23,053 bases of DNA from a virus: the IMG/VR virus record IMGVR_UViG_3300046011_006521, positions 1 through 23,053 of that record. One strand, given 5' to 3'. The notes below the pieces were generated by a model. The model saw nothing but the letters and a program-made list of their open reading frames with translations, had not been told where the DNA came from and searched no databases. Position 1 is the first letter of the stretch, and each line of letters opens with the position of its first letter. Made by a program: the position numbers and the translations under genes. Shown piece after piece: positions 7,157 through 23,053 of this stretch.

Positions 7157-8383
7157 TTAAAATGCTGATATAATTGCATCCATTGATTGTGATGATATGG
7201 TATTAGCTAAACGCTGTCCTATTGAATTTGATGAAGTTAATGAAGTTAAGGCAATATTCCAAATATCTTCTGGTTTTACAAGAGCAGTTCCTACTGTTTG
7301 ATCTACGGCTACTCCTATTGAAACAGAATTTGGATCAGGTACCGCCATTGAACCTGTTAATTCGTTTCCAGGTCCATATATGGTTCCTACGCGCACATCG
7401 GAGCCAGAAGGTACACCTGTAACTTGATCTGGTGATAAAAGTGAGATTGTATTAGCGGACCCAGATACTCCAATTGTGTAACGTGTTGTTACATCATCAT
7501 ACATTTGTACGTTATAGCAATATATTGCATTACGTGAGCCTGAATTAATGAGTGGGCCAGAGAATATGTTGGTTGCTGTAGTTGAGGTGGATGATATGGC
7601 ATTTGCTGTTGGAGAAGATATCACTTGACCTATTACATTAATGATACCAGCTGTAGTTGATGTTATAGCGGGTTGTACTGTAACACTGGTGACATTTCCG
7701 GTTATGTTTATAGTACCTATTCCGGTATTACTAATTGCAGCTGCATTAGTACCACTTATTACATTACCTGTTATGTTAACGATACCCAAGAAACCATTAA
7801 CTATAGCAAATGGCCCAGAACCATTTATTCCACCGGTTACGTTGCCTGTTATATTTACTGTACCTACTGATGACACGGCGAAATTATTTGATTGATTGGT
7901 ACTTCCAGGTTCAACGTTTCCTATTATATTAACAATACCCGCTGCCGAATTAGTCACAGTTCTAGCGTTAGATGTACTATTACTCGGAAGTCTTACATCT
8001 CCAATTATGTTGATGGTCCCTGTATTTACATTTTGTAGAGTATTTCTTGTGGAAACTAAATGTGCTGTTATTGTGATTGAACCAGTATTGTAGTATTTTA
8101 CAAATCCTCCTGCCACGGTAGCGCCAGAACTATCTAAACCACCCACATTAACTGATTGTGTTGTAGTGCAAGTAATATTGTAGTCAGCGTATATATTAAG
8201 CAATCCGTTCGCTACGGCACTACCGGTAGCAGTATTACGTATACTTCTAACAATAACGGTTTGATCTAACGTTACAGTTTGATTGTTTAAAAATACATCA
8301 TCAGATGCAGTTGGTATTAAACTACCACTCCATATTGCAGCGTCACTCCAATTTCCTGATATTATTGGCCATCTGTTTGGCAT
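7157..8383 (-). CDS. Beta-helix fibre/adhesin paralogue 4 of 4, 408 aa
   Basis: Probable receptor-binding or tail-fibre component. The N-terminus, MPNRWPIISGNWSDAAIWSG, then LIPTASDDVFLNNQTVTLD, is the G8-like beta domain opening shared by all four neighbours (SGNWS..xxW.xG.xPTAxDDV). Residues ~90-290 are a run of short repeats centred on NITGNV / INIxGxV, as expected for a right-handed beta-helix. The C-terminal ~110 residues carry the shared ending (NAIYCYNVQM, DVRVGTIYGPGNELTGSMAV, GVAVDQTVGTALVKPEDIW, IGQRLANT). A TTG at 8407 could extend the ORF by MQLLKENN but the ATG at 8383, one nt after the previous stop (TAATATG) behind AAGGA, is clearly better. It is the last of the tandem set. Confidence 0.85.
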   Translation of the reverse strand: MPNRWPIISGNWSDAAIWSGSLIPTASDDVFLNNQTVTLDQTVIVRSIRNTATGSAVANGLLNIYADYNITCTTTQSVNVGGLDSSGATVAGGFVKYYNTGSITITAHLVSTRNTLQNVNTGTINIIGDVRLPSNSTSNARTVTNSAAGIVNIIGNVEPGSTNQSNNFAVSSVGTVNITGNVTGGINGSGPFAIVNGFLGIVNITGNVISGTNAAAISNTGIGTINITGNVTSVTVQPAITSTTAGIINVIGQVISSPTANAISSTSTTATNIFSGPLINSGSRNAIYCYNVQMYDDVTTRYTIGVSGSANTISLLSPDQVTGVPSGSDVRVGTIYGPGNELTGSMAVPDPNSVSIGVAVDQTVGTALVKPEDIWNIALTSLTSSNSIGQRLANTISSQSMDAIISAF

Positions 8384-8384
8384 A

Positions 8385-9560
8385 TTATTTTCCTTTAAAA
8401 GCTGCAATAGTTGCTGCTGTGGTTTGTACTGTTGCTATATTTTGTAAACGAGCTCCAATTGTATTGGAACCTGTTAAACTTGATACTGCATACGTTAAAA
8501 TATCTTGTGGGGTCAATGTAGCAGAACCTGTTGTTTGATCTACGGGTACTCCGTAACGAACAGAACTAGTTGCAGGTACTACCATTGAACCGGAAAATTC
8601 GTTTGATCCACCATATAAACTTCCGCTTCGTACATCGGTTTGAGTGGGTAGGCTTGAAGTAAATGACGTATCGTAAAATGTTACGTCTTTACCGAATGTA
8701 TCTGATTGGAAAGTGTAGGTTGGATGCGAATCTGAAAAGTATTGTATTTTTGGGGAAAATACTGCGTTAATATTATTTTGGTTGATTAATGGACCAGATA
8801 CACGTACTGTTGCTGCTGTTGATGTTGATGATATACTTGGGGTGTTATTATTTGCTGCAATGGAGCCCGAGATAGTAAGTGTGCTACCTTGGGTACTACT
8901 AATAGCAGGTGCAATTCGAGCTATGCATGAACCTGTTATATTTATAGTACATGCTGATATTGTATTGACTATTGCGGTTCCATTAGCACCAGTTGTACCT
9001 CCTAATACGTTTCCTAATATATTTAAGACACATGCTGAATTAGCATAAATAGCATTAGCTGATGGTGCACCGGTATTAGTACCTCCGGTAACATTTCCTA
9101 TAATATTTATTGTTGCAGCTGCTTGTACATTTAACGCAGCATTTACTCCACCACTATTAACTAATGGATTTGATAATTCTCCATTAATATTTACTACACA
9201 TACGCTATTAACAGATACTGCAGCTTGCCCTCCGCCGGTAGCAGCTCCGATTAAATTTGAATTTATATTTACAATTATACCAATACCTGTTATTCTAACT
9301 AAACCGCCAATTGGACCGGTCAAAGATTTAGCTATTATACCATTTGTTGCAGTACATGTTAATGTCCTACTAGTAGAAATAGTTACGTTGCTGGTAGCAT
9401 TTGCAGCTCCTGTTAATGATATAATTGTAGCATCAACATCTAATGTTACTATATGGTTAGCTGCAATTACAACATCATCTGCAGATGTAGGAACTACACC
9501 TCCTACCCAAGTTCCGGTGGCTGACCAATTTCCTGTTGCAGCTGATGTTATTGTTGCCAT
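8385..9560 (-). CDS. Beta-helix fibre/adhesin paralogue 3 of 4, 391 aa
   Basis: Begins MATITSAATGNWSATGTWVG and continues VVPTSADDVVIAANHIVTLD, the clearest G8-like N-terminal domain of the four. The middle (about residues 85-270) is a low-complexity beta-helix with repeats such as INIIGNVTGG, LNILGNVLGG and INITGSC. The C-terminal domain repeats the family pattern: NAVFSPKIQYF, PTYTFQSDTFG, DVRSGSLYGGSNEFSGSMVV, GVPVDQTTGSATLTPQDI, IGARLQNIATVQT. The ATG at 9560 lies one nt after the previous stop (TAATATG) with AAAAGGAAC upstream; the TTG at 9596 inside the upstream gene is rejected. Likely a trimeric fibre or adhesin; the receptor is unknown. Divergence among paralogues is concentrated in the central helix. 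Confidence 0.85.
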   Translation of the reverse strand: MATITSAATGNWSATGTWVGGVVPTSADDVVIAANHIVTLDVDATIISLTGAANATSNVTISTSRTLTCTATNGIIAKSLTGPIGGLVRITGIGIIVNINSNLIGAATGGGQAAVSVNSVCVVNINGELSNPLVNSGGVNAALNVQAAATINIIGNVTGGTNTGAPSANAIYANSACVLNILGNVLGGTTGANGTAIVNTISACTINITGSCIARIAPAISSTQGSTLTISGSIAANNNTPSISSTSTAATVRVSGPLINQNNINAVFSPKIQYFSDSHPTYTFQSDTFGKDVTFYDTSFTSSLPTQTDVRSGSLYGGSNEFSGSMVVPATSSVRYGVPVDQTTGSATLTPQDILTYAVSSLTGSNTIGARLQNIATVQTTAATIAAFKGK

Positions 9561-9561
9561 A

Positions 9562-10818
9562 TTATAAAGTTCCTTTTGATGAAATTGCTGCTGCAACGTT
9601 TGCTACAGTTGCAGTGTTTTTTAATCGGGTTCCAACTGCCGTAGAACCAGTCAAACTACTTGTTGGAGTCGCCCATGCATTTTGTGTATCAAATGAAGCA
9701 GAACCTGTTGTGTTCCCTACAGGTACTCCTTTAAGTACAGAACCGGTAGACGGTATTGCTACTACACCGGTAAATTGAGAGGTATCTCCAAACGTAATTC
9801 CTTGGCGTACATTGTTAATGGAAGGGAAATTTCCGGGATAATCTGTTGTATATAGTGTTCTTTGTTCTCCAAATGTTTCTGTATCAAATGTCCAAGTTGG
9901 TGTTGAACCTGATATAAGTTGTATGTTTGGGGCAAATACTGCGTTGCGATTTCCAGTATTATAGAATGGACCTGTCAAAATATTTGTTGCAGAGGGATTT
10001 GTTAATGAAATGCCTACAATGTTGTATGATGCATGTATGGGCCCTATAATAGTTGTTGTTCCTGCACCAGTTAGTGAAAGTGCTGGGGATGTAAATGCTG
10101 CGCAGCTTCCGGAAATTTCTGTTATATGTGATGTAGTGCTGACTATTGCTGGGCCTAAAATACTACCGGTTATGGTAATAATAGAGTTTGCTGCTGGTGT
10201 AGCTATAATGCCAGATTCTCCAAAGTTTGATAAAGTTCCTTTGATGTCAACAGTTACTAGATTAGTATTGCATGTTAGTTGTGGTGCACCATTAGTTACC
10301 ATACTTCCTGATATGTTGATTGAACATGGGGAGGTTATGTTAAATGTTTGAGCTCGGGTGTCTGTAGTAGTCGTACTCATACTTCCTGTAAAATTTACAG
10401 TCTGGTTGGTTCTAACTCCTATGCAGTATAGACTTGCACCGTTGGCTACAGTGCTTCCAGATATATTTACAACTCCAGAACCACTTAAAATAATTGAGGA
10501 GTTAAAGTTAGTTAAAAGTGCTCTAATTATATTTCCATTAATCGAACAACCCGTTGAACCAATATATCGTATAACTTCTACTGCATTTCCTTGTATGGTA
10601 TCCGCAGATATTGTTATATTAGAGTTAATATCAAATCTACCGCCAGCTACTGCGGGTGAAGATGCATTGTTTCGTAAACTTAATACTGCACTACTAGTGT
10701 CAATAGTTACAACAAAATTATTTGGGCGAACATCATCTGCAGCAGTTGGTAACGCACCTGTATTCCATACCGTAGTATCGCTCCAATTTCCTGATTTTAC
10801 TGCATATACATTTGCCAT
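9562..10818 (-). CDS. Beta-helix fibre/adhesin paralogue 2 of 4, 418 aa
   Basis: Starts MANVYAVKSGNWSDTTVWNT with LPTAADDVRPNNFVVTID, the shared N-terminal domain. Central repeats include VNISGSTV, INISGSMVTNG, VDIKGTLS and ITITGSILG, a beta-helix pattern that is less regular than in paralogues 3 and 4. The C-terminal domain contains NAVFAPNIQLISGS, PTWTFDTETFGEQRTLYTTD, NVRQGITFGD, GVPVGNTTGSASFDTQNAW and VGTRLKNTATV. It starts 2 nt after the stop of paralogue 1 (TAATTATG) without a strong ribosome binding site, so translational coupling is likely. Function as a host-recognition protein is inferred from architecture and location in the fibre cassette. Confidence 0.85.
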   Translation of the reverse strand: MANVYAVKSGNWSDTTVWNTGALPTAADDVRPNNFVVTIDTSSAVLSLRNNASSPAVAGGRFDINSNITISADTIQGNAVEVIRYIGSTGCSINGNIIRALLTNFNSSIILSGSGVVNISGSTVANGASLYCIGVRTNQTVNFTGSMSTTTTDTRAQTFNITSPCSINISGSMVTNGAPQLTCNTNLVTVDIKGTLSNFGESGIIATPAANSIITITGSILGPAIVSTTSHITEISGSCAAFTSPALSLTGAGTTTIIGPIHASYNIVGISLTNPSATNILTGPFYNTGNRNAVFAPNIQLISGSTPTWTFDTETFGEQRTLYTTDYPGNFPSINNVRQGITFGDTSQFTGVVAIPSTGSVLKGVPVGNTTGSASFDTQNAWATPTSSLTGSTAVGTRLKNTATVANVAAAISSKGTL

Positions 10819-10820
10819 AA

Positions 10821-12113
10821 TTACACTTTAAATGATGATATGGTAGCTCCTACTGTTTGTATAGTGGAAGCTCCGGTTAATAAATTTCCTATACTACCCG
10901 AGTCGGTTAAATTTTGTGTTGCAACATTAAACATATCTTCTGCTGTAAATATAGCAAAACCTGTTGTGTTGTCTGTTGCAACTCCGTTTTTTACTACGGT
11001 CGGATCCGGCATTGCTAGTGAGCCAGTTAATCCAAAATTATATTGTGTTCCTTTTCGTACATCAGTTTGTTGAGGTACTCCAGGTAATTGATTTGAAGTG
11101 TAAAGTGTTTTTGATACACCTGCTGTTTCTGTGTCAAATTGCCATGTTGTTGAGGTAGGTTCTATCATTTGCATACGATATGCATATACTGCGTTAAATG
11201 AACCGGTATTGTAGAATGGGCCTGTGAATAGGTTTGTTGCGCCGGTACCGGTTGAAATAACTCCGGATGCAGAAATGCTTGATGATATTGGTCCGCGGAC
11301 TATTAATTGGGAGTTTCCTGTTAATGAAATTGTACTAGTAGTTCCTGCTGTTAAACTGCCCGAAATATATACTTGAATCGCGTTTGCTGTTGAAACCAAT
11401 TGTCCGCCAGTTGTTCCGTTTGTAGTTACGCTACCCGTTACTGTAATTATCGAACCTATGCCTGGCAGAGAGATAAGTGGATTTGTTGTATAAGTTGTTG
11501 ATATATTTCCGTTGATATTTATTGTTCCTTCTAAGTTGTTTAATAATATTATTGGTACGTTATTTAAAGGTGGAGGAGTAATAACTGGGCCTGTTAGATT
11601 TAATGTTGTTCCAGCAGCGTTTACAACAATTGTTTGTTGTGATACAGCAGAACCCGTAGGTGATATACTACCGCTGATATTAATAGTGGATGCAGAGTTT
11701 ATATTGATAAGTGCGCGTCCATTAGCACCGGTTGTCCGTTTTATAGCTCCATTAATATTAATTACACCTGAGCCATTAATTATTAATGTTATTATATTAA
11801 TATTATTATTTATAGTATCAATATCACCATTAATTGTAAATCCATTAGATCCTGAATTAAATGTTAAACAATTAGTCGTGCCTGAGTTAATGTTAGCTGT
11901 TATAGTGTAATTATCATTGATTACAAATCCGCCGCCAGATGCAGCACTACCCGTTGTTAGTGTTCGTAATTGTAACACATTGATATTTTGGTCTATAGTT
12001 ACAGTAAATCCATTTGCTGCTACATCGTCAGATGCAGTAGGTAATCCTAATCCGTCATTCCATATTGCGGAGTTACTCCAATTTCCTGATGCTATAGCCC
12101 ATCTAATCGGCAT
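10821..12113 (-). CDS. Beta-helix fibre/adhesin paralogue 1 of 4, 430 aa
   Basis: Begins MPIRWAIASGNWSNSAIWND with LPTASDDVAANGFTVTID, the common N-terminal domain; its first residues are closest to paralogue 4 (MPNRWPIISGNW). The centre has INGDIDTINN, ININGAIKRT, INISGSISPTGS and ININGNIS repeats. The C-terminal domain has NAVYAYRMQMIEP, TTWQFDTETAGVSKTLYTSN, DVRKGTQYNF, GSLAMPDPTVVKNGVATDN and IGNLLTGASTIQT. It starts one nt after the stop of the 96-aa gene, with AAAAAGGAC as ribosome binding site. It is the first and longest of the four tandem copies. Confidence 0.85.
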   Translation of the reverse strand: MPIRWAIASGNWSNSAIWNDGLGLPTASDDVAANGFTVTIDQNINVLQLRTLTTGSAASGGGFVINDNYTITANINSGTTNCLTFNSGSNGFTINGDIDTINNNINIITLIINGSGVININGAIKRTTGANGRALININSASTINISGSISPTGSAVSQQTIVVNAAGTTLNLTGPVITPPPLNNVPIILLNNLEGTININGNISTTYTTNPLISLPGIGSIITVTGSVTTNGTTGGQLVSTANAIQVYISGSLTAGTTSTISLTGNSQLIVRGPISSSISASGVISTGTGATNLFTGPFYNTGSFNAVYAYRMQMIEPTSTTWQFDTETAGVSKTLYTSNQLPGVPQQTDVRKGTQYNFGLTGSLAMPDPTVVKNGVATDNTTGFAIFTAEDMFNVATQNLTDSGSIGNLLTGASTIQTVGATISSFKV

Positions 12114-12114
12114 T

Positions 12115-12405
12115 TTATAGTCCTTTTTCTATTATAAATTGTTGTATAATTCCCAGTATGTTATATGCTGCCGTTTCAGCCGGCATATCTTCGGATTCAA
12201 ATACATCCAAATATACTACGGGACGATCATGTCCTTGCAATACATCTGTTACTCCGCCTTCTAATTCGCGGTAAGGTGTTAAACGCATTGCTACGCTAGC
12301 TCCAACTGATGTTGGTTTAACTAGAGGTGATATTGATAAATTTATAGTGTAATATGGATATTCAATTCCATCTACTGTTATAGGATTTGTTGATTGTATT
12401 GGCAT
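12115..12405 (-). CDS. Small conserved-looking protein inside fibre cassette, 96 aa, function unknown
   Basis: Begins MPIQSTNPITVDGIEYPYYT and is a compact alpha/beta protein with ISPLVKPTSVGASVAMRLTP, a charged middle and a C-terminal helix (NILGIIQQFIIEKGL). No known catalytic motif. It sits between the 159-aa fibre-like gene and the four beta-helix fibres, with 4-nt and 1-nt gaps, so it belongs to the same translation-coupled unit. A GTG at 12450 would extend it by 15 residues into the previous gene; the ATG at 12405 is preferred because the neighbours also use stop-start junctions. Candidate roles are fibre assembly helper, connector or baseplate adaptor; none is shown by the sequence. 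Confidence 0.7.
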   Translation of the reverse strand: MPIQSTNPITVDGIEYPYYTINLSISPLVKPTSVGASVAMRLTPYRELEGGVTDVLQGHDRPVVYLDVFESEDMPAETAAYNILGIIQQFIIEKGL

Positions 12406-12409
12406 AACT

Positions 12410-12889
12410 TTATAAATATGTGTATGAATATCTGTTTGTCCAAGCAGCACTTGAAGTTGTTTGGGTTAAAGTTTCTCCGGATGAAGATATAGAAAGTCTT
12501 GAAATATCCCAAACGTTAGCAGATTCAGATGAACCTGAAATTGCTTGTCCTAAATAGAGTAAATTGACATTTGGATCTACAGATCCGGTATAATCGCTTC
12601 TGCGAATATATTCTGCAGCTCCAACACCTGTTAGTCCAGATCCATCGCCGGTGAAACTTCCGGTAAAAGATCCTGTGGTATATGATGAGGTAAATGCATT
12701 GAATGATGCAGTGGTAACTAGAGAACCGGTGTCAATTGTTACACCACCTTCTAAAAATGATGCAGTTAATGCATATGATGCGGTACCTTGCAATGATGCT
12801 GTTATTCCGGCTGTTACTGTGAGTGAACCGGTTATGTTGGAATTTCCCTGTGAGAAAAATCCATTTTTAATTATGAATTCGTTTGGCAT
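12410..12889 (-). CDS. Short fibre-like protein with TGSFTGSF module, 159 aa
   Basis: Starts MPNEFIIKNGFFSQGNSNIT and continues GSLTVTAGITASLQGTASYA, LTASFLEGGVTIDTG. Residues 54-90 (SFNAFTSSYTTGSFTGSF and GDGSGLTGV) repeat the module found twice in the 1209-aa fibre. Such ASYA/GSFTGSF shafts are trimeric fibre stems in related phages (general knowledge), so this is probably a short fibre segment or an attachment piece lacking a receptor-binding tip. The last 60 residues (YLGQAISGSSESANVWDISR, ending SYTYL) are unique in the window. Start context GGAAAGGGAAAAGATATG is good and an ATATTTATA box lies about 37 nt upstream. Confidence 0.8.
   Translation of the reverse strand: MPNEFIIKNGFFSQGNSNITGSLTVTAGITASLQGTASYALTASFLEGGVTIDTGSLVTTASFNAFTSSYTTGSFTGSFTGDGSGLTGVGAAEYIRRSDYTGSVDPNVNLLYLGQAISGSSESANVWDISRLSISSSGETLTQTTSSAAWTNRYSYTYL
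12411..12419 (-). promoter_or_regulatory. ATATTTATA box overlapping the end of the 159-aa gene
   Basis: Coding-strand ATATTTATA lies 5 nt before the ATG of the 96-aa gene and also encodes the last residues and stop of the 159-aa gene. It may be a real box or a coincidence forced by coding; it is the least convincing of the eight copies. Confidence 0.25.
12620..12730 (-). repeat. TGSFTGSF fibre module, copy C
   Basis: Third copy of the module encoding TGSLVTTASFN..FTSSYTTGSFTGSF.GDGS.LTG, here in the 159-aa gene. The protein match to copies A and B in the 1209-aa fibre is nearly complete over about 35 residues. Confidence 0.75.
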
Positions 12890-13095: not shown

Positions 13096-13269
13096 TTAAA
13101 TTAATCCTTCCTCATACTCAATGTAAATACCATCTTCATCTTCTTGTGGCTCGGTGTAAGTTCTTGTTACTGCATCATCACTTACTGGTATTCCAATTAG
13201 TGTATTTATCTCTCCAATGAAAGCATTTGCTTCTTCAAGTGTTTCAAAGTATCTTTTAGTAAATTCCAT
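13096..13269 (-). CDS. 57-aa acidic protein of unknown function
   Basis: Begins MEFTKRYFETLEEANAFIGE and continues INTLIGIPVSDDAVTRTYTE, ending with a very acidic PQEDEDGIYIEYEEGLI. The start ATG lies inside the last codons of the lectin-type gene (14-nt overlap), a normal phage arrangement for coupled translation. The coherent composition, the YFxTxEEAxxFI helix and the stop 0.17 kb later argue that it is real despite its size. There is no clear ribosome binding site apart from upstream translation. It could be a small chaperone or stabiliser for the protein encoded just before it; this is only a guess from the overlap. Confidence 0.6.
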   Translation of the reverse strand: MEFTKRYFETLEEANAFIGEINTLIGIPVSDDAVTRTYTEPQEDEDGIYIEYEEGLI

Positions 13270-22313: not shown

Positions 22314-23053
22314 TTAAAGTGTGTTTAACCCGTGTACGTATACTTTTCCGTAGAATTCTGGACGAACTACTTTCTTCGCGTAACGTGTCATAACACCTTT
22401 ACGTGGAGTGAAGTTAACTGGATCGTATACTAATGGAGTCATAATCAACGGAATATAAGGACTAAATACAGCACCTGTTTCTAAGAACTGGCTTCCTCTG
22501 AATCCCATTAAGATTACGTTTTCTGTCATATATGGGTTTTTGTATACAGTGTAACGATTATTGATAGCACCAATTTTTTGTACACCTGCAGCAAATTCCA
22601 TTTTAGTTCCGTCAGTGTCTGCAGCAAATCCTGGGATAGATTCTAAGATCGTTGCTACTGATGGACTAGTTACAAGGAAGTTTGCACCACCACGTAATGT
22701 TTTTTGGTGAATTTTATTAGATACTTTTTGAAGTTTAGTACCTAAAGTTTGGAACCAACCACCTTGAGTGTTATAGAAACCATCACCAGCTAAACCAGGT
22801 GTTCCTGCGCCTACTTGAGTGAATCCAGTTCCATTCCAGATGTTGTTGTTCAATGCTGACCAATACTCAGTTGTTGGAGCTGCAGAGATTAACATATCCA
22901 AGATCTCTAAATCGATTTCCATAGATACATACTCAGATAACATTGAAGTTAATTCTGCTTCAGCATCAATTGAATGGTAAGCGTTTAAATCTTGAGCAAA
23001 CTCTGGAGTCCATACTGCTTTCAACTTACGTGTTTTAGCAACGATTGGATCTG
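22314..23053 (-). CDS. 23: Major capsid protein (gp23-like), C-terminal 246 codons
   Basis: This is the shell subunit of the head. The window begins inside the gene; the frame is open through base 23053, and reads DPIVAKTRKLKAVWTPEFAQ then DLNAYHSIDAEAELTSMLSE and YVSMEIDLEILDMLISAAP, all strongly gp23-type. Later segments include FYNTQGGWFQTLGTKLQKVS, GANFLVTSPSVATILESIPG, YKNPYMTENVILMGFRGSQF, PLIMTPLVYDPVNFTPRKGV and the ending MTRYAKKVVRPEFYGKVYVH. T4 gp23 is 521 aa before processing, so roughly half is missing here, including the prohead-protease cleavage site. The TTG at 23024 is only an internal codon, not a start. A dedicated terminator follows, consistent with abundant late expression. 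Confidence 0.96.
   Translation of the reverse strand, partial: DPIVAKTRKLKAVWTPEFAQDLNAYHSIDAEAELTSMLSEYVSMEIDLEILDMLISAAPTTEYWSALNNNIWNGTGFTQVGAGTPGLAGDGFYNTQGGWFQTLGTKLQKVSNKIHQKTLRGGANFLVTSPSVATILESIPGFAADTDGTKMEFAAGVQKIGAINNRYTVYKNPYMTENVILMGFRGSQFLETGAVFSPYIPLIMTPLVYDPVNFTPRKGVMTRYAKKVVRPEFYGKVYVHGLNTL

Follow-up and report, generated by a model that had tools for sequence, protein, structure and literature searches.

Four tandem genes of an uncultured virus, F1 to F4, encode paralogous proteins that are predicted to fold as beta-helices and that recur in the same order in other uncultured phages. Their C-terminal domains keep to their positions in the array, and their N-terminal parts have been exchanged between positions and phages. 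We consider it rather probable that the array is a modular rack of four receptor-binding proteins in a contractile-tailed phage, with the C-terminal domain (C-domain) as the slot, the helix as the cargo, and the products of two neighboring genes, g95 and g159, at the base. The DNA analyzed, 23,053 bases long and hereafter the window, makes up one entire IMG/VR virus record and is probably a genome fragment; its relevant features are listed in Table 1.

In the proposed mechanism, the N-terminal cap (N-cap) and the single-chain right-handed beta-helix would be exchangeable cargo, probably receptor binding, and the C-terminal ~150 aa would be an assembly domain dedicated to one of four slots. The g95 protein and the fiber C-terminal domain of g159 would likely form the common base under the slots. 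Host recognition would be altered by recombining helix cargo, from other phages or from other slots, onto the C-domain of a slot, with the four slots staying in place. Most likely, F1 to F4 would then belong to one complex as its four adhesins. The leading ideas for such an array are that it confers several receptor specificities or forms a heteromeric or branched complex.

Table 1. Positions of the array genes, their domains and the linked genes in the window
Feature	Position	Strand	Basis
F1, putative slot-1 beta-helix adhesin, 430 aa	10821..12113	-	ORF, paralogy; slot-1 clade
F1 C-terminal slot domain	10821..11273	-	Slot sorting
F2, putative slot-2 beta-helix adhesin, 418 aa	9562..10818	-	ORF, paralogy; slot-2 clade, SH-aLRT 100
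F2 C-terminal slot domain	9562..10014	-	Slot sorting
F3, putative slot-3 beta-helix adhesin, 391 aa from ATG	8385..9560	-	ORF, paralogy; slot-3 clade, SH-aLRT 99
F3 exchanged cargo, N-cap + helix, residues 1-240	8841..9560	-	67-93% by 30-residue block to the slot-2 protein of phage L009
F3 C-terminal slot domain, last 150 aa	8385..8837	-	67-90% to the slot-3 C-domain of phage L009; slot sorting
F4, putative slot-4 beta-helix adhesin, 408 aa from ATG	7157..8383	-	ORF, paralogy; AlphaFold model
F4 C-terminal slot domain	7157..7609	-	Slot sorting
g95, 96 aa, directly upstream of F1, gap of 1 nt	12115..12405	-	80-88% in other four-gene phages
g159, short fiber protein	12410..12889	-	C-terminal 74 aa recur at fiber-protein ends upstream of g95
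Long fiber-like protein, 1212 aa	14610..18248	-	Weak local match to immuto tail fiber; homologs upstream of other arrays

Architecture and predicted fold of the array proteins

F1 to F4 are read in this order on the minus strand, from 12113 to 7157, with stop-start gaps of 2, 1 and 1 nt at the F1/F2, F2/F3 and F3/F4 junctions (TAATTATG, TAATATG and TAATATG, respectively). The four are probably cotranslated from one message; promoter and terminator scans gave no excess above shuffles. The start of F3 was placed at the ATG, the ORF list having a TTG at 9596. All pairs of the four proteins could be aligned by BLASTP (E values of ~1e-30 to 1e-67), with full-length identities of 33 to 39% and many invariant columns in the SGNWS..W..PTA..DDV start and the VR.G..Y / GV.VD.T.G.A end. 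The central helix is homologous too, but has diverged further than the ends. The initial annotation had described four paralogous proteins of 391 to 430 aa with common motifs at both ends, coupled by stop-start junctions of 1 to 2 nt, and on both points it was correct. Alignment, which it had proposed as a check, showed homology reaching beyond low-complexity repeats; similarity through such repeats only is ruled out by the full-length alignments and the invariant non-repeat residues.

The beta-helix fold that had been suggested for these proteins was corroborated by an AlphaFold model of F4, the slot best conserved across phages, built as a single chain on 62 relatives. F4 is modeled as a single-chain parallel beta-helix, of the right-handed parallel beta-helix fold class, up to residue ~290 with pLDDT mostly >90, and its C-domain reaches only ~50 to 75. 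Because the C-domain is poorly resolved in the monomer model despite being among the best-conserved parts, the model hints that it may fold with a partner. Structural neighbors of the helix by VIA-align were antifreeze, epimerase, lyase and tailspike beta-helices (Z up to 16.9, rmsd of 3 to 5 over 225 to 275 residues), with CBA120 tailspikes among them at Z of ~15 to 16; these matches span the helix only, and indicate the fold while saying nothing on function. Foldseek gave no match of F4 to the PDB below an E value of 0.001, and in a viral structure library the sole strong match was an uncharacterized protein of an uncultured phage. Acidic or basic residues (D, E, H, K, R) conserved at a level of at least 85% were absent from the helix of every slot, which speaks, at the level of residue conservation, against a conserved helix enzyme; active sites specific to single alleles would be possible. 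A G8 domain (PF10162) scored 14.9 bits in F3, below the Pfam gathering cutoff of 22.9, and a G8 match was found in 1 of 62 family members (E value of 0.007).

The family is common in environmental viral contigs, and the searches of isolate, plasmid and bacterial genome collections did not recover it. No relatives were detected by tblastn of F1, F3, the F3 C-domain and g95 against isolated phages, by F1 in plasmids, or by g95 in bacterial and archaeal genomes (GTDB); the BLAST low-complexity filter may lower sensitivity for the helices, and to a lesser degree for g95 and the C-domain. A PDB sequence search with a profile of the four proteins returned nothing, and Pfam and PHROGs held no convincing family match for the array proteins.

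Ordered slots and exchanged cargo

Relatives were collected by IMG/VR scans. The comparison of copy number in related phages, which had been proposed earlier, recovered nine other distinct IMG/VR contigs with a complete four-gene array, and further contigs with cut-off copies. Loci that run on past the last copy comprised 10 distinct four-gene arrays (the window included), 53 one-copy loci and 5 two-copy loci; no three- or five-copy array was found among them. Stop-start gaps of 0 to 3 nt recurred across the arrays, the few negative values being misplaced starts. A tree of 117 proteins placed every position of the array in a clade of its own, with SH-aLRT values of 100, 99 and 100 for slots 2, 3 and 4 and of 97 for slot 1, one chimera excepted; single-copy proteins fell outside the slot clades, except for fragments cut by contig ends. 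Since each position forms its own clade, the quartet is, judged by this phylogeny, old and ordered. Duplication followed by divergence, as the initial annotation had supposed, therefore fits the paralogy and the diverged helices, but not as a recent expansion private to one phage, which the tree rules out: the positions are old slots common to many phages. Values of dN/dS between 0.12 and 0.35 indicate purifying selection, and thus proteins that are maintained.

The cassette is also mobile. Arrays of the phages L010, L019 and L020 adjoin other genes, and F4 of L020 is 90% identical to that of L006, whereas the sheath homolog is only 31% identical; the cassette therefore moves between phage lineages with its order kept. 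A further array of up to four copies (L187, 7150 to 12618) has C-domains that match all four slots poorly and is perhaps an independent expansion. The slot-3 gene of L008 (12093 to 12824) is without an intact N-terminal part, which is present in the near-identical L015 copy (11562 to 12872), and reflects either a genuine break in the gene or a misassembly.

Slot identity was examined in a sample of ~17 quartet phages and three close two-gene phages. In 58 of 58 proteins, the C-terminal ~150 aa matched best to those of another protein from the same slot, and the C-domain tree consisted of four clean clades (support of 98 to 99) with the minimum of four changes. When the proteins were divided into windows of ~30 residues, the best match was in the same slot for 55 of 57 to 58 of 58 proteins across the C-domain, as opposed to only 29 of 56, 44 of 58 and 47 of 58 in 30-residue windows of the N-terminal part. 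Slot-specific C-domain HMMs placed all eight held-out copies (from L085, L094 and L156) correctly, by a wide margin in seven and a weaker one in a truncated copy. No C-domain crossed between slots in the sampled proteins. Within a slot, identity across phages was 55 to 82% in the first 30 residues, ~24 to 57% in most of the helix and 57 to 89% in most of the C-domain; the helix segments are thus the least conserved, the C-domains are among the most conserved, and the first 30 residues are both conserved and common to all slots.

The divergence of the exposed part that had been noted earlier is therefore real, but part of it, at least, stems from helix cargo that has moved from one slot or phage to another. 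F3 of the window resembles F2 of L009 over residues 1 to 240 (74 to 85% in DNA by 60-codon block); beyond residue ~240, identity to this cargo donor falls to 30 to 55%, and the remainder of F3 matches the slot-3 C-domain of the same phage. Similarly, F1 of L017 carries slot-4-like cargo and F1 of L013 slot-2-like cargo, both switching ~150 residues before the end. In these clear swaps, of which there are ~4, the breakpoint lies near the border between the helix and the C-domain. Saturation as the sole cause of the poor slot sorting of the N-terminal part is ruled out by such sharp chimeras. The same separation was seen in two-gene arrays of a separate single-copy lineage, where the C-domains group by gene order (85 to 93% identity within and 73 to 80% between groups) and a long helix occupies copy 1 in L113 and L145 but copy 2 in L134, the order of the C-domains being kept.

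The conserved first 30 residues count against the rack, and a common N-terminal anchor is possible. They underlie its chief rival, the classic polarity, in which the common GNWS cap would attach and the C-domain would be a distal trimerization or folding domain of homotypic oligomers, with no docking address. Residues 1 to 30 are, as this polarity would have it, conserved within slots and common between them, N-terminal domains assemble the known tailspikes of branched complexes, and a C-domain unresolved as a monomer fits an oligomerization domain. However, the N-cap is modeled as a part of the beta-helix and swaps along with it, and N-caps that were all equivalent anchors would give no reason for four slots, although four are maintained in a set order. 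We therefore regard the classic polarity as unlikely, though it is the alternative to be taken most seriously. Far less probable is that the C-domains are four distal lectin-like tips for four receptors, carried on helices that act as spacers of variable length. Such tips would explain why the C-domains differ from slot to slot and why protein length varies widely within a slot (369 to 626 aa for slot 3), but receptor-binding parts usually evolve fastest, whereas here it is the C-domains that are conserved, and the helices that are least conserved within slots and exchanged. For the four-slot rack, which we continue to favor, we infer that the C-domain anchors or pairs subunits and that the helix binds to a molecule on the host surface; the attached end, stoichiometry, receptor and place on the virion are to be read in the same way.

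Comparison with known systems

Literature on equivalent arrays turned up only branched tailspike and fiber systems. In the Ackermannviridae (CBA120 and S117; TSP1 to TSP4), up to four tailspikes are linked by their conserved domains and bind different polysaccharides through their variable ones; the binding part is swapped, and the assembly domains (anchor, XD and TD) are N-terminal, XD being T4 gp10-like (PMC11414711). The array is like this complex in its clustered genes for different beta-helix proteins of a presumed receptor-binding type, in the helix fold of the F4 model, which resembles the CBA120 tailspikes, and, as read from the genes, in combining conserved assembly domains with variable binding domains that are swapped. 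It differs in polarity, as the variable part is C-terminal in the Ackermannviridae, whereas in the array the slot-specific part is C-terminal. Unlike the Ackermannviridae tailspikes, the four array proteins share one short architecture, have no conserved acidic or basic helix residue and match no sequence family. N-terminal XD/TD (gp10-like) domains are absent: the F4 model starts at the helix cap, the paralogs align from residue 1, and neither Pfam nor PHROGs matched such assembly domains in the array proteins. Because the helix cap leaves no space for preceding XD/TD domains and the polarity is reversed, the best reading, by analogy, would be that the array works like the branched Ackermannviridae complex without being a member of it and with no detected kinship.

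Klebsiella phage phiKp24 carries 14 TSPs in a branched complex that is assembled via T4 gp10-like domains (PMC11414711). The array would likewise place many receptor-binding proteins on one virion, if its products are located there. To our knowledge, the phiKp24 tailspikes are not equal-length tandem paralogs; they are taken for capsule depolymerases. The array proteins differ from tailspike depolymerases in having no conserved catalytic acidic residues in the helix. With G8 and pectate-lyase-like right-handed beta-helix proteins they share the single-chain parallel beta-helix and an N-cap weakly resembling G8, but the G8 score lies under the Pfam cutoff and concerns few members, and the helix has no conserved catalytic acid or base.

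Taken together, a fixed four-slot rack with C-domain addresses on a base of g95 and the g159 fiber end, a polarity opposite to that of known tailspike complexes, and a cassette that is mobile between distant phage backbones and has its cargo shuffled between slots could represent an undescribed class of host-recognition apparatus, a suggestion that we make tentatively. In uncultured phages, several adhesins may be kept side by side and renewed with assembly left intact, the position code being separate from the exchangeable part. This separation provides a testable rule for telling the domain that governs assembly from the one that governs host range.

Linked genes and genomic setting

The g95 gene stands immediately before the first beta-helix gene in every locus showing both; more distant family members were seen without a recognized g95 in view. 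Its identity to the copy in the window is 80 to 88% in other four-gene phages and ~51 to 64% in most single-copy phages, and within four-gene phages the mean for g95 is 87% as opposed to 49 to 61% for F1 to F4. The AlphaFold model of g95 is confident (pLDDT of 92), and fold comparison gave no Foldseek match with an E value of <0.001 and a best VIA-align Z of 3.2, which is uninformative. A protein ending in the C-terminal domain of g159, often a long fiber protein, was found just upstream in 154 of 162 g95 loci, a count that includes duplicate contigs. Being far more conserved than F1 to F4 and linked to a g159-type fiber end is what a common adaptor predicts, and we propose from these comparisons that g95 may be an adaptor shared between the fiber end and the variable adhesins. 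The 1212-aa protein, with its weak local match to the annotated tail fiber of Flavobacterium phage immuto, is a probable fiber shaft.

Transcription of the window starts with the C-terminal part of a T4-type major capsid protein, a 91-aa protein, a PhoH-like protein and a head-tail adaptor, continues with two tail/neck-type genes, the 1212-aa fiber-like protein, a 450-aa virion protein, g159 and g95, and ends with F1 to F4, an 89-aa protein, tail sheath, tail tube and baseplate hub. An ORF of ~57 aa (MEFTKRYFETLEEANAF...; 13096 to 13269, minus strand) lies between the 450-aa virion protein and g159. The closest isolates are immuto and Microcystis phage Mel-JY01 (49% in the sheath). The capsid part (22314 to 23053, minus strand) is 77% identical to that of immuto, far closer than the tail genes. 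Our guess at a Bacteroidota host rests on these closest isolate relatives. Mel-JY01 has the same backbone order, with a counterpart of the 407-aa gene followed directly by counterparts of the 89-aa gene and the sheath, and is without fiber genes, g159, g95 and array at that place. Since the module is missing there between conserved backbone genes, the whole of it is, by gene order, an insertion relative to Mel-JY01 or a loss in Mel-JY01.

The position of the array, with neck-type genes (head-tail adaptor, 407 aa) on one side and the gene for the tail sheath on the other, would suit whisker-like proteins that decorate the neck, head or tail sheath, or that have a general sticking role rather than one in host recognition, but this is the least probable reading of all, as the arrays of L010, L019 and L020 have other neighbors, in a backbone whose sheath homolog, seen in L020, is only 31 to 35% identical, the linkage is to fiber-type genes, and the hypervariability of the helix suggests selection on binding. 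Two neighboring tail-sheath homologs (22464 to 24938 and 25953 to 28427) were observed in L083, a 484-kb uncultured phage (LR756508).
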